Origin: Intestinimonas butyriciproducens
GTDB taxonomy: Bacteria; Bacillota; Clostridia; Oscillospirales; Butyricicoccaceae
Direction of reading: 5' to 3'
NCBI RefSeq assembly: GCF_016901775.1
Contig: NZ_JACJKW010000001.1
Span: forward strand, 186,001 to 250,000
Length of the DNA: 64,000 bases
Positions 19,381 to 58,303 of this stretch are shown one piece after another. The translations under genes and the position numbers were made by a program. Below the pieces are notes generated by a model. The model worked only from the letters and a program-made list of their open reading frames with translations, had not been told where the DNA came from and searched no databases. Within the stretch, counting starts at the first letter, position 1; every line of letters starts with the position of its first letter.

Positions 19381-20571
19381 ATGGCACGATTTACATTGCC
19401 CCGGGATCTGTATCATGGTAAGGGCGCGATTGAAGAACTGAAGAATCTGAAAGGCAAAAAGGCCATTGTTGTGGTAGGCGGCGGTTCCATGAAGCGTTTT
19501 GGCTTCCTGGATAAAGCGGTGAACAACCTGAAGGCGGCCGGCATGGAAGTGCAGCTGTTTGAGAATGTGGAGCCCGATCCTTCTGTGGAGACCGTCATGC
19601 GCGGCGCCCAGATGATGCGGGAGTTTGAGCCCGACTGGATCGTGGCCATGGGCGGCGGTTCCCCCATCGATGCGGCCAAAGCCATGTGGGCCTTCTATGA
19701 ATATCCGGAGACCACCTTTGAGCAGCTGATCACCCCCTTCAACTTCCCCACCCTGCGCACCAAGGCTCGTTTCTGCGCCATTCCCTCCACTTCGGGCACA
19801 GCCACCGAGGTCACAGCTTTCAGCGTCATCACCGACTATGAGAAGGGCATCAAGTATCCTCTGGCCGACTTTAACATTACCCCCGATGTGGCCATTGTGG
19901 ACCCGGATCTGGCCGAGACCATGCCCAAGAAGCTGACGGCCCACACCGGTATGGACGCCATGACCCACGCCATCGAGGCCTATGTGTCCACCGCTCATTG
20001 CGATTACACCGATCCTCTGGCCCTCCACGCCATCCATATGATCCATGAGGATTTGATCGCCTCCTTCCAGGGAGATATGGCCGCCCGGGATCGGATGCAC
20101 AACGCCCAGTGCCTGGCCGGTATGGCCTTCTCCAATGCGCTGCTGGGCATTGTTCACTCCATGGCCCACAAGACCGGCGCTGCCTTCTCCGGCGGGCACA
20201 TCGTCCATGGCTGCGCCAACGCCATGTACCTGCCCAAGGTCATTCGCTATAACGCCAAGAATCCGGAAGCTGCGGAGCGCTATGCTCAGATCGCTAAATT
20301 CCTCCACCTCTCCGGCAGCAACACCGAAGAGCTGGTTACCAGCCTGATTGAAGAGCTGAAGAAGATGAACAAGGCCCTGGAGATCCCCTCCTGCATCAAG
20401 GATTACGAGGGCGGCATCATCGACGAGAATGAGTTCATGGAGAAACTGCCCCAGGTGGCCGAGCTGGCCATTGGCGATGCCTGCACTGGCACCAATCCCC
20501 GCATCCCCACCCAGGAAGAGATGGAGAAGCTGCTGAAGGCTTGCTATTACGACCTGGAGATCGATTTCTAA
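19381..20571 (+). CDS. Iron-containing alcohol dehydrogenase
   Basis: Type III dehydrogenase that interconverts aldehydes and alcohols with NAD(P)H, typically at the end of fermentation. The 396 residues show the nucleotide-binding MGGGSPIDAAKAMW, the AIPSTSGTATEVTAF block, and the metal-site region HTGMDAMTHAIEAYVS with HSMAHKTGAAF and GGHIVHGCANA, which together supply the Asp and three His iron ligands. The whole length resembles clostridial butanol or 1,3-propanediol-type enzymes; the substrate cannot be fixed. Ribosome site is GAGGAGG. It appears to be transcribed alone. Confidence 0.93.
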   Translation: MARFTLPRDLYHGKGAIEELKNLKGKKAIVVVGGGSMKRFGFLDKAVNNLKAAGMEVQLFENVEPDPSVETVMRGAQMMREFEPDWIVAMGGGSPIDAAKAMWAFYEYPETTFEQLITPFNFPTLRTKARFCAIPSTSGTATEVTAFSVITDYEKGIKYPLADFNITPDVAIVDPDLAETMPKKLTAHTGMDAMTHAIEAYVSTAHCDYTDPLALHAIHMIHEDLIASFQGDMAARDRMHNAQCLAGMAFSNALLGIVHSMAHKTGAAFSGGHIVHGCANAMYLPKVIRYNAKNPEAAERYAQIAKFLHLSGSNTEELVTSLIEELKKMNKALEIPSCIKDYEGGIIDENEFMEKLPQVAELAIGDACTGTNPRIPTQEEMEKLLKACYYDLEIDF

Positions 20572-20587
20572 AATAGATCACAACAAA

Positions 20588-20616
20588 AAGCAGCGCCGCA
20601 TTTCGCGGCGCTGCTT
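20588..20616 (+). terminator. Terminator hairpin, left duplicate flanking repeat element A
   Basis: AAGCAGCGCCGC-ATTT-GCGGCGCTGCTT type hairpin, 29 bp, identical to 20871-20899. This copy keeps the A run on its left but has no T run on its right. Confidence 0.85.
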
Positions 20617-20870
20617 CAGACTGTCGAAAAACCTATATAACGAAAAGGGTCATCCGCCCTACCCCTATAAATCCGCAAAAAGCCGCGACCTGTGCGTGGC
20701 TTTTTGCACTTCTCAAGGGCGGGGCGCCCGCTGGCAAACATTCTTTGCCCGGGTCAACACAACCGGCCAAGGCAAAGAAAGGAACGGGTCCAGCGTCACG
20801 CTGGGCGGCTCGCCGCCAGCCCCTTGCAAAAACTCGAAAAAGTGGCCTAAGCCACTTTTTCGACACGCTC
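20617..20870 (+). mobile_element. Structured repeat element, copy A
   Basis: A 254 bp insert separates two identical copies of the same 29 bp terminator hairpin. Its ends carry imperfect inverted repeats (TGTCGAAAAA at the left end and its complement at the right end). Inside are a long hairpin built from GCAAAAAGCC and GGCTTTTTGC, and a right-end hairpin AAAAAGTGGC/GCCACTTTTT. It shares these blocks in order with copies B (52016-52205) and C (58101-58278), but has about 72 bp extra in the centre. It lies between convergent genes and has no transposase. I infer a non-autonomous mobile element. Confidence 0.7.
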
Positions 20871-20899
20871 AAGCAGCGCCGCATTTCGCGGCGCTGCTT
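20871..20899 (+). terminator. Terminator hairpin, right duplicate flanking repeat element A
   Basis: Identical to the 29 bp hairpin at 20588-20616. This copy is followed by the T run and so is the functional rightward terminator. Confidence 0.85.
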
Positions 20900-20915: not shown

Positions 20916-21443
20916 TTACAGCGGGATGTCTTTCAGATCCACTTTGCATTCGTTCCAATCTGCAAAAGTGTGGTTTTCTTCAAATTTTTTCAAAGGAATA
21001 CAGGAAAACCGGGCTTTGCATCCCAGCAGGGTTCCCTCTCCCCAACCGGCGTAAAAATGATACCGGTCCTCTGAACCAAAGGTGTAGGTTTCGGTGATGC
21101 TTTCAAAGGGCAGCAGCACCGGCTGATCGGTGACGCTGAGAGTGGACTGGAGAGTGGGATCGGGCCGGCCCAGGGCTTCATTATAGGAGAAGGGAGTAAA
21201 CACCGAGCCGCTGTAGGCGATGCGCTGGGGCCAGGGCGTATTGTTTCGTAGAGTGCACTGGACGGTGATCGTTCCTTCGTTTTTGTCGCTGGGTTTCTGG
21301 AGGATCTTCATGGAAAGGCTAAAGTCCTCTAAAGCGGCGATCTGATCCCGCTGGAAGCCATAATAGAGCCAGCCGCCGACACCAAGACCGATGGCAAGAA
21401 GCAGGGCCAGTGAGGAAAGTATCCATTTTGTCTTTCTTTTCAC
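20916..21443 (-). CDS. Membrane-anchored protein, unknown function
   Basis: About 175 residues, not recognised. A basic N-terminus (KRKTKW) and a single transmembrane segment (ILSSLALLLAIGLGVGGWLYYG) lead to an external beta-rich domain (EGTITVQCTLRNNTPWPQRI, SITETYTFGSEDRYHFYAGW). The start is taken as GTG because AAAGGAGG lies just upstream; the open frame reaches an earlier ATG at 21467, before that ribosome site. It resembles the other small anchored proteins here only in layout. Confidence 0.65.
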   Translation of the reverse strand: MKRKTKWILSSLALLLAIGLGVGGWLYYGFQRDQIAALEDFSLSMKILQKPSDKNEGTITVQCTLRNNTPWPQRIAYSGSVFTPFSYNEALGRPDPTLQSTLSVTDQPVLLPFESITETYTFGSEDRYHFYAGWGEGTLLGCKARFSCIPLKKFEENHTFADWNECKVDLKDIPL

Positions 21444-21547
21444 GGGAAACACCTCCTTTGGATACATTTATTATAAAATAAAATATTTTTTGCGTCACTG
21501 GGAAAAATTACAGAAGGCTCCCCAGAAAAATTGTGGATTACGGCAAA

Positions 21548-30937: not shown

Positions 30938-30948
30938 CAGGAAACGCC

Positions 30949-31054
30949 AGACTGTGGAAAAACCGATATAGCCAGAGGGAAGCATTTGCTTTACCTCTTA
31001 TCAATTTGCAAACCCCAGACCTGTGCGCCGGTTTTTGCATCTCTTAAAAAGGAC
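30949..31054 (+). repeat. Repeat family remnant D (left half)
   Basis: Degenerate left part of the same element as copy A. It shares the terminal block AGACTGT.GAAAAACC.ATATA and the central GACCTGTGCG..GGTTTTTGCA. No right end or flanking duplicated hairpin is visible. It lies between the zinc-ribbon gene and the MATE promoter. Confidence 0.6.
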
Positions 31055-31066
31055 CTCCTGGGTCGC

Positions 31067-31095
31067 TTGCGGAATCCCTGATTTTGTGATATGAT
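31067..31095 (+). promoter_or_regulatory. Promoter of the first MATE transporter gene
   Basis: TTGCGG at 31067-31072 and TATGAT at 31090-31095, 17 bp spacing, directly after repeat remnant D. Confidence 0.6.
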
Positions 31096-31159
31096 TTGCA
31101 TTACAGCAGTTTCGACTCTAAACTGTTTGCCGGTGAAAATCATGGAAGGAAGTGATCCC

Positions 31160-51988: not shown

Positions 51989-52017
51989 CCCCGCCGTTTG
52001 CATAGCAAGCGGCGGGG
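51989..52017 (+). terminator. Terminator hairpin, left duplicate flanking repeat element B
   Basis: CCCCGCCGTTTGC pairs with GCAAGCGGCGGGG around ATA. The core 25 bp (51991-52015) match the right copy at 52206-52230 with two differences. There is no T run after this copy. Confidence 0.85.
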
Positions 52018-52205
52018 TGAGTGTTCCGAAAAAGTGGCTTAGGCCACTTTTTCGGGTTTTTGCAAGGGGCTGTGTGCAGCCATTCGGCCACACTGGCCCC
52101 TTGCAAGGTGCAAAAAGCCACCCGCAGGTCGCGGATTTTTGCGGATTGATGAGGGGGAGGAAACAGGTTTCGCTCCAGCTGGATCTGTTTTGCGATAGTC
52201 TGAAT
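52016..52205 (-). mobile_element. Structured repeat element, copy B
   Basis: About 190 bp between two near-identical terminator hairpins, in reverse orientation to copy A. Read on the minus strand, it starts TTCAGACTATCG and contains AATCCGCAAAAATCCGCGACC, then GTGGCTTTTTGCA. It continues to CAGCCCCTTGCAAAAAC and ends with the hairpin AAAAAGTGGC/GCCACTTTTT. These blocks are shared with A and C in the same order. It separates the convergent M16 peptidase and ornithine-cyclodeaminase-family genes. No protein gene is convincingly present. Confidence 0.7.
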
Positions 52206-52232
52206 CCGCCGCTTGAATAGCAAGCGGCGGAT
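52204..52232 (-). terminator. Terminator hairpin, right duplicate flanking repeat element B
   Basis: ATCCGCCGCTTG pairs with CAAGCGGCGGAT. The plus-strand side continues into ATTTTC. It also serves as the first hairpin after the leftward ornithine-cyclodeaminase-family gene. Confidence 0.85.
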
Positions 52233-58075: not shown

Positions 58076-58100
58076 AAGCCCTGGTATGCAGGGCTTTTTT
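58076..58100 (-). terminator. Terminator hairpin, left duplicate flanking repeat element C
   Basis: AAGCCCTG-GTATG-CAGGGCTT followed by T, identical over 25 bp to 58279-58303. On the minus strand this copy keeps its T run and is the effective terminator for nrdG. Confidence 0.85.
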
Positions 58101-58278
58101 GTTGTTGAAAACGACATAGGCAGGAAGGAGCTTTTGCCCTATCCCGAATCAATCTGCAAAAAGTCACGACCTGTGGGTGGCTTTTTGCACTTCTCAAGGG
58201 GCCAGTGTGGCCGGTGGGCTGCACGCAGCCCCTTGCAAAAACTCGAAAAAGTGGCATAGCCACTTTTTCCACATGTGT
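58101..58278 (+). mobile_element. Structured repeat element, copy C
   Basis: A 178 bp insert between two identical copies of the nrdG terminator hairpin. It has the long hairpin GCAAAAAGTC.../GGCTTTTTGCA, a central palindromic GGGGCCAGTGTGGCC and the CTGCACGCAG-CCCCTTGCAAAA block. The right-end hairpin is AAAAAGTGGC/GCCACTTTTT. These match copies A and B block by block. Orientation is opposite to that of the nearest gene nrdG, so the element is not simply part of one gene's 3' end. Confidence 0.7.
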
Positions 58279-58303
58279 AAGCCCTGGTATGCAGGGCTTT
58301 TTT
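58279..58303 (-). terminator. Terminator hairpin, right duplicate flanking repeat element C
   Basis: Same 25 bp as 58076-58100. It begins in the nrdG stop codon. On the minus strand its T run is cut off by the element, leaving ACAC. Confidence 0.85.

Follow-up and report, generated by a model that had tools for sequence, protein, structure and literature searches.

We analyzed a window of 64,000 nucleotides (the whole stretch of DNA under study) from the Intestinimonas butyriciproducens genome, hereafter the home genome. Within the window, an ORF on the plus strand (19381-20571) points at an intergenic site, and an ORF on the minus strand (20916-21467) points at the same site from downstream. 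Between them lie two identical 29 bp hairpins, AAGCAGCGCCGCATTTCGCGGCGCTGCTT, in direct orientation (100% identity), and the hairpins enclose an insert of exactly 254 bp, which we call copy A (Table 1). The hairpin loop, ATTTC, is asymmetric and has the same reading direction in both copies; therefore, the 29 bp unit is a direct repeat and not merely a palindrome. There is an A-run on the outer left side and a T-run on the outer right side, and the ends of the insert carry inverted TGTCGAAAAA. The identical hairpins, the A-run and T-run, and the insert with its inverted ends had been described in an earlier sequence-only reading of the window, and we confirmed each of them. Because both flanking genes run toward the site, the ancestral hairpin probably terminated transcription in both directions. 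The orthologous site in genome G001 falls at the start of a contig.

The sequence-only reading had also noted copies B and C, with a common insert and locus-specific hairpins. This held: both have their insert in common with copy A, and each lies between hairpins of its own. The two hairpins that flank copy C differ at the foot, and the differences are compensatory. That these hairpins were kept by compensatory changes led us to suggest that both terminators at an occupied site may still be in use.

Table 1. Coordinates of the element copies and their parts in the window.
Feature	Position	Strand	Basis or remark
Left duplicated terminator hairpin, copy A	20588..20616	.	100% identical to 20871-20899
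Element copy A, 254 bp (usual ~183 bp)	20617..20870	+	Covariance-model places, family homologues
Left terminal inverted repeat, CAGACTGTCGAAAAAC	20617..20632	+	Common to copies here and in other genera
Hairpin 1, conserved loop G-ACMTGYG-C	20675..20707	+	Invariant loop residues, covarying stem
Hairpin 2 (CAAGGG...CCCCTTGCA), opened by extra segment in copy A	20715..20828	+	Core copies ~45 nt here
Hairpin 3, 3' arm carries the right inverted repeat	20834..20863	+	Perfect 13 bp stem
Right terminal inverted repeat, TTTTTCGACACGCTC	20856..20870	+	Carried by the 3' arm of hairpin 3
Right duplicated terminator hairpin, copy A	20871..20899	.	Identical to 20588-20616
Degenerate copy, right-truncated, left end and hairpin 1 only	30948..31047	+	Runs into promoter-like sequence
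Copy C, between diverged, compensated hairpins (52206-52230, 51991-52015)	51991..52230	-	Model match C1:238061-238144
Copy B, between duplicated hairpins GCCCTGGTATGCAGGGC (58078-58094, 58281-58297)	58078..58297	+	Model match C1:244154-244237

The extra segment that opens hairpin 2 of copy A matches other intergenic repeats and is derived from a different intergenic repeat. It spans 20720-20815 of the window (GCAAACATTCTTTGCCC...GGGTCCAGCGTCACGCTGG) and is part of that repeat, which is arranged in tandem-like modules on two contigs, C3 and C10 (loci L075, L076, L077, and L078). A relative of the segment occupies the same position in elements L002, L005, L007, L008, and L011. The degenerate copy, with its left end and hairpin 1, continues into promoter-like sequence ahead of the next gene (30948-31130).

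The element family and its folded core

The typical element is ~183 bp long, has inverted ends (AGnnTGTCGAAAAA) and three hairpins, and is gene-free. A blastn-type search recovered many home-genome copies beyond the three already noted, with near-identical, recent ones among them (e.g., 98%). We then built a covariance model on the 85-position core of the element. It gave 82 matches in the home genome, five of which were weak reverse-strand echoes, leaving 77 places. Thus, the three copies of the sequence-only reading are real, but the total is far larger, and the usual length is ~183 bp rather than 254 bp. The element has moved at least 75 times inside the home genome, mostly into terminator hairpins. 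With the same model, matches were found in 37 of the 87 genomes of the family Butyricicoccaceae, with up to 39 strict matches per genome outside the home genome and 20 in G015. Like architecture, with duplications, occurs in genera g15, g6 (Agathobaculum/Butyricicoccus), and g11, and examples of flanking hairpin duplications in other genera are L045, L057, L068, L137, L140, L144, L145, L223, L224, L227, L228, and L229.

In being short, non-coding, and multi-copy, with terminal inverted repeats and a target duplication, the element resembles a MITE; no known autonomous element with the same ends was found. Rfam 15 gave no match at the gathering score and nothing relevant at relaxed thresholds, an IMG/VR scan returned no exact match, and we found no published description of the family within the open-access literature. 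Relative to genes, both orientations occur. The idea that insertion is steered by the sense of transcription was rejected, as there is no orientation bias. Intervals between convergent genes hold 24 of the 52 classified sites, a count based on simple and noisy ORF calls.

The core consists of hairpin 1, with the loop G-ACMTGYG-C on a covarying stem; hairpin 2, whose sides CAAGTGT and GCAG are conserved; and hairpin 3, in which the right inverted repeat forms one arm. Across 31 sequences, 97.7% of cells pair, the covariation is 0.318 (0.137 in shuffles), and 57 cells show changes on both sides, versus 15.5 in shuffles. On the plus strand there are 98 G.T pairs and 11 A.C pairs. The stems hold better on this strand than on the complement, with 97.7% versus 85.5% of cells paired, an alifold score of -24.1 versus -18.2, and a single-copy fold of -68.0 versus -61.8 kcal/mol, although this comparison favors the plus strand somewhat, since the consensus structure was derived on it, and hence is no proof. 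Because of this strand difference in the modeled folds, which lies in the G.T pairs, we suggest that the working form of the element may be RNA or single-stranded DNA.

Insertion duplicates the whole hairpin

We asked whether the hairpins on the two sides of a copy match each other. Among 72 copies with sufficient flank, the left and right flanks of the same locus scored at least 28 at 45 loci, versus 0.9% of non-own (shuffled) pairs. Stricter scoring of 57 home-genome copies found a clear hairpin on both sides of 28, on one side of 23, and on neither side of 6. The members of the pair are near-identical in 26 of the 28 two-sided copies. Thus, the flanking repeats that were to be looked for at every copy are present at about half of them, and most of the others are one-sided, usually retaining the right hairpin.

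Nearly all of the one-sided copies in the home genome keep the right hairpin, and many have decayed left ends. We therefore read them as old copies, on the assumption that they have decayed. In old home-genome copies, loss of the left hairpin and left end is far more frequent than loss of their right counterparts. This retention of the right side led us to propose that selection may be preserving the right part, hairpin 3 together with the right terminator, for its function as a terminator.

The flanks of six copies in G015 were then searched in its sister species, G036, and in a third species, G027. In G036, all five sites at which both flanks were found carry a single undivided terminator and lack the element. 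These sites bear directly on the proposal that an orthologous empty site should carry a single terminator, and each has one hairpin, not two. The empty site of L227 in G036 reads AATAATAAAAGCCACCCATAGCGGTGGCTTTTTTATGGC. The left flank of L045 was placed wrongly in the alignment, and there the junction was read from the sequence itself. At the L068 and L228 sites, G027 is also without the element (within 400 nt). This favors gain of the insertions in G015 over their precise loss in G036. Insertion of the element is therefore accompanied by duplication of the whole hairpin, and the flank matches and empty sites together support the earlier proposal of a terminator-targeting element whose target duplication is the hairpin.

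To describe the cut, we fixed the element ends from the inverted repeats and measured the distance from the hairpin dyad to the joint in the right copy (h5) and in the left copy (h3) of 18 elements with clear ends. The two distances differ by at most 1 nt in 17 of 18 copies and average 13.5. The joints lie 0 to 6 nt outside the G-C stem and never inside it (0/18). Both distances rise with stem length (slopes of 0.62 and 0.73). The stagger between the two joints is 23 to 34 bp, reaching 32 to 34 bp on long stems, and duplication lengths cluster at 24 to 30 bp. An initial correlation between the lengths of duplication and palindrome was dropped because A/T pairs outside the duplication confounded it, and the dyad measure replaced it. 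An earlier, rougher measure had short stems offset by larger joint distances, leaning to a fixed ruler. In our reading, the foot of the hairpin determines where the joint falls, with some minimum spacing; a partial ruler is conceivable from the earlier measure.

Candidate mechanisms and known systems

Our main reading, to which we give a probability of about 0.78, is that the element is mobile but non-autonomous, that its targets are palindromic hairpins (in almost all cases intrinsic terminators), and that each insertion leaves the entire hairpin in two copies. The enzyme and the chemistry of insertion we infer. A trans-acting recombinase would bind the inverted ends of the element and recognize a dyad-symmetric target, either as an extruded hairpin or cruciform or as symmetry in duplex DNA. 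The enzyme would join one element end to each of the two opposite strands, at the hairpin's 5' feet, and gap filling by host repair would then copy the hairpin on both sides. The mobilizing protein probably binds the internal hairpins, whose G.T pairs make them strand-specific, in the form of RNA or single-stranded DNA. Since each side retains a complete terminator, intergenic insertion would cost little, and this low cost can explain the high copy number. More tentatively, we envisage a structured mobile family of Butyricicoccaceae, perhaps of Clostridia more widely, whose novel and probably vertically inherited enzyme would integrate the element by reading the dyad of the hairpin rather than a sequence; the element, as RNA or single-stranded DNA, would itself be an essential component of the machinery.

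We searched for the mobilizing enzyme. There are no genes inside the element, and no ORF-bearing unit bounded by element ends was found among the fetched loci. Among the end-pattern matches listed for the home genome, pairs occur only at element size; in the fetched loci, they are element-sized or belong to separate copies. The only recurrent ORFs beside hairpin 1 are conserved host genes or the element's own frames. The full-length autonomous copy anticipated by the sequence-only reading was therefore sought in vain: none with the same ends was found. The partner search covered the Pfam families rve, Y1_Tnp, DUF772, DDE_Tnp_1, and RVT_1, and each of them is lacking in genomes with many copies. 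Because multi-copy genes may drop out of draft assemblies, a family missing from one genome is weak evidence, and one missing from many genomes is stronger. We found rve twice in G000 (frames of 308 and 252 aa) and not in G015; Y1_Tnp twice in G000, at contig ends, and not in G067, G026, or G011; and DUF772 once in G067, where no TGTCGAAAAA ends were seen at the locus. Neither DUF772 nor DDE_Tnp_1 was found in G000, G015, G036, G062, G063, G064, G070, G072, or G075, and RVT_1 was not found in G000, G015, G036, G067, G070, or G075. Given this absence from the transposase families searched, the enzyme may be host-encoded or of a type outside them.

The element could instead be a MITE of a DDE insertion sequence, such as one of the IS1202 group, with a fixed long stagger of ~26 bp and with hairpins hit through a preference for dyad symmetry or A/T-runs. 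The IS1202 group has an rve-type (DDE) transposase and makes duplications of 16 to 28 bp (PMC10132070), a range that overlaps the 24 to 30 bp cluster seen here. The inverted ends of the element contain TGT, like IS1202-family ends (PMC10132070), and by one measure, the offset shrinks as the stem grows. However, rve is unmatched in G015 despite its 20 strict model matches, and the stagger tracks stem length up to 32 to 34 bp. Moreover, the duplication does not abut the TGT, from which it is separated by five shared bases, no hairpin target is reported for IS1202, and no conserved target is reported for the long-duplication group (PMC10132070). We consider this origin unlikely.

The closest known systems are IS1272 and TnSha1 of the IS1182 family, which target hairpin-forming inverted repeats, often terminators, of any sequence and in both orientations (PMC4923244, PMC5678879). 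The element has the same kind of target, without sequence specificity, and its terminal inverted repeats are like theirs (~16 bp). However, IS1272 carries its own transposase, and IS1272 and TnSha1 delete the target hairpin and make no duplication (PMC4923244, PMC5678879). The statement in the sequence-only reading that no described family fits must therefore be narrowed: targeting of terminator hairpins is known from IS1272 and TnSha1, and duplication of the hairpin sets the element apart from them. A cruciform target has been proposed, and joining at its 5' feet, drawn as a predicted alternative (pathway b), would duplicate the whole stem-loop (PMC5678879). The element family behaves like pathway b. 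IS1182-family transposition in trans, joining 5' instead of 3' feet of the cruciform, would thus account for both target and product. DUF772 and DDE_Tnp_1 were searched for and are missing from most hosts, including the nine genomes listed above, and we therefore did not file the element under IS1182 and regard this route as improbable.

Group IIC introns resemble the element in being structured and in preferring terminator hairpins. They integrate next to the hairpin, with no known target duplication, and depend on a reverse transcriptase. Retrotransposition of an RNA by such an enzyme would agree with the conserved RNA-like structure with its G.U pairs and with the terminator target, but RVT_1 was not found in the six genomes named above, no target duplication is known for group IIC introns, and there is no sense bias toward genes; we consider it very improbable. 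Two pre-existing terminators around a conserved regulatory RNA, homogenized by gene conversion, would suit the conserved structure and the copies fixed in operons, but are refuted at the five tested sites, where empty sites carry one hairpin, and are scarcely credible elsewhere, as hairpins match within loci and differ between loci and the joints are only 0 to 6 nt from the stem.

The preferred reading, a hairpin-duplicating element mobilized in trans, also invites comparison with other small repeats. REPINs (RAYT, IS200/IS605-like Y1) are likewise short, structured, intergenic, non-coding, and possibly mobilized in trans by a gene of the host. They are not known to make a target duplication, and they use Y1, whereas for the element, Y1_Tnp was not found in G067, G026, or G011. 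BOX, RUP, SPRITE, and bacterial MITEs share with the element short length, lack of coding capacity, structure, intergenic position, and inverted ends; for none of them did we find a description (PMC3049150) of the terminator-hairpin duplication that characterizes the element.

As a rule, the transposase fixes the length of the target duplication, which is short. In this family, what is duplicated is an entire functional part, a terminator, and the length of the duplication depends on the structure of the target, so that the element can spread while leaving adjacent genes their stop signals. The family supplies many natural cases of a hairpin-duplicating outcome that had previously only been drawn (PMC5678879), which opens the reading of a hairpin by a recombinase to experimental test. 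An integrase guided by structure would be of interest for applications as well.

Related sequences in other settings

The hairpin duplication is absent around some homologues in conserved operons. In several Agathobaculum genomes, homologues lie at the same position in the infB-rbfA region, and others lie between infA/map and rpsM. These homologues (L141, L153, L155-L157, L292, L302, L305, L321, and L324) are apparently fixed and have no flanking hairpin repeats; it is possible that they have been recruited as regulatory RNA.

Two copies in Agathobaculum desmolans (L252 and L264) stop directly after hairpin 2 and lack both hairpin 3 and the inverted repeat it carries, yet duplicated hairpins flank them. 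The right inverted repeat may be dispensable.

Hairpin 1 also occurs with the exact loop in contigs filed as Candidatus Saccharibacteria (L262, L276, and L301), in two of which it adjoins an apparent RNase P RNA gene. These occurrences could be real, convergent, or misbinned. In ruminant-gut Clostridia (L258, L260, L267, L270, L274, L285, L307, and L331), hairpin 1 heads longer composites (GAGTGCCGCGAGCGG..., GTCGAGAGCGAAGCGAC), which look like further, distinct interspersed families.
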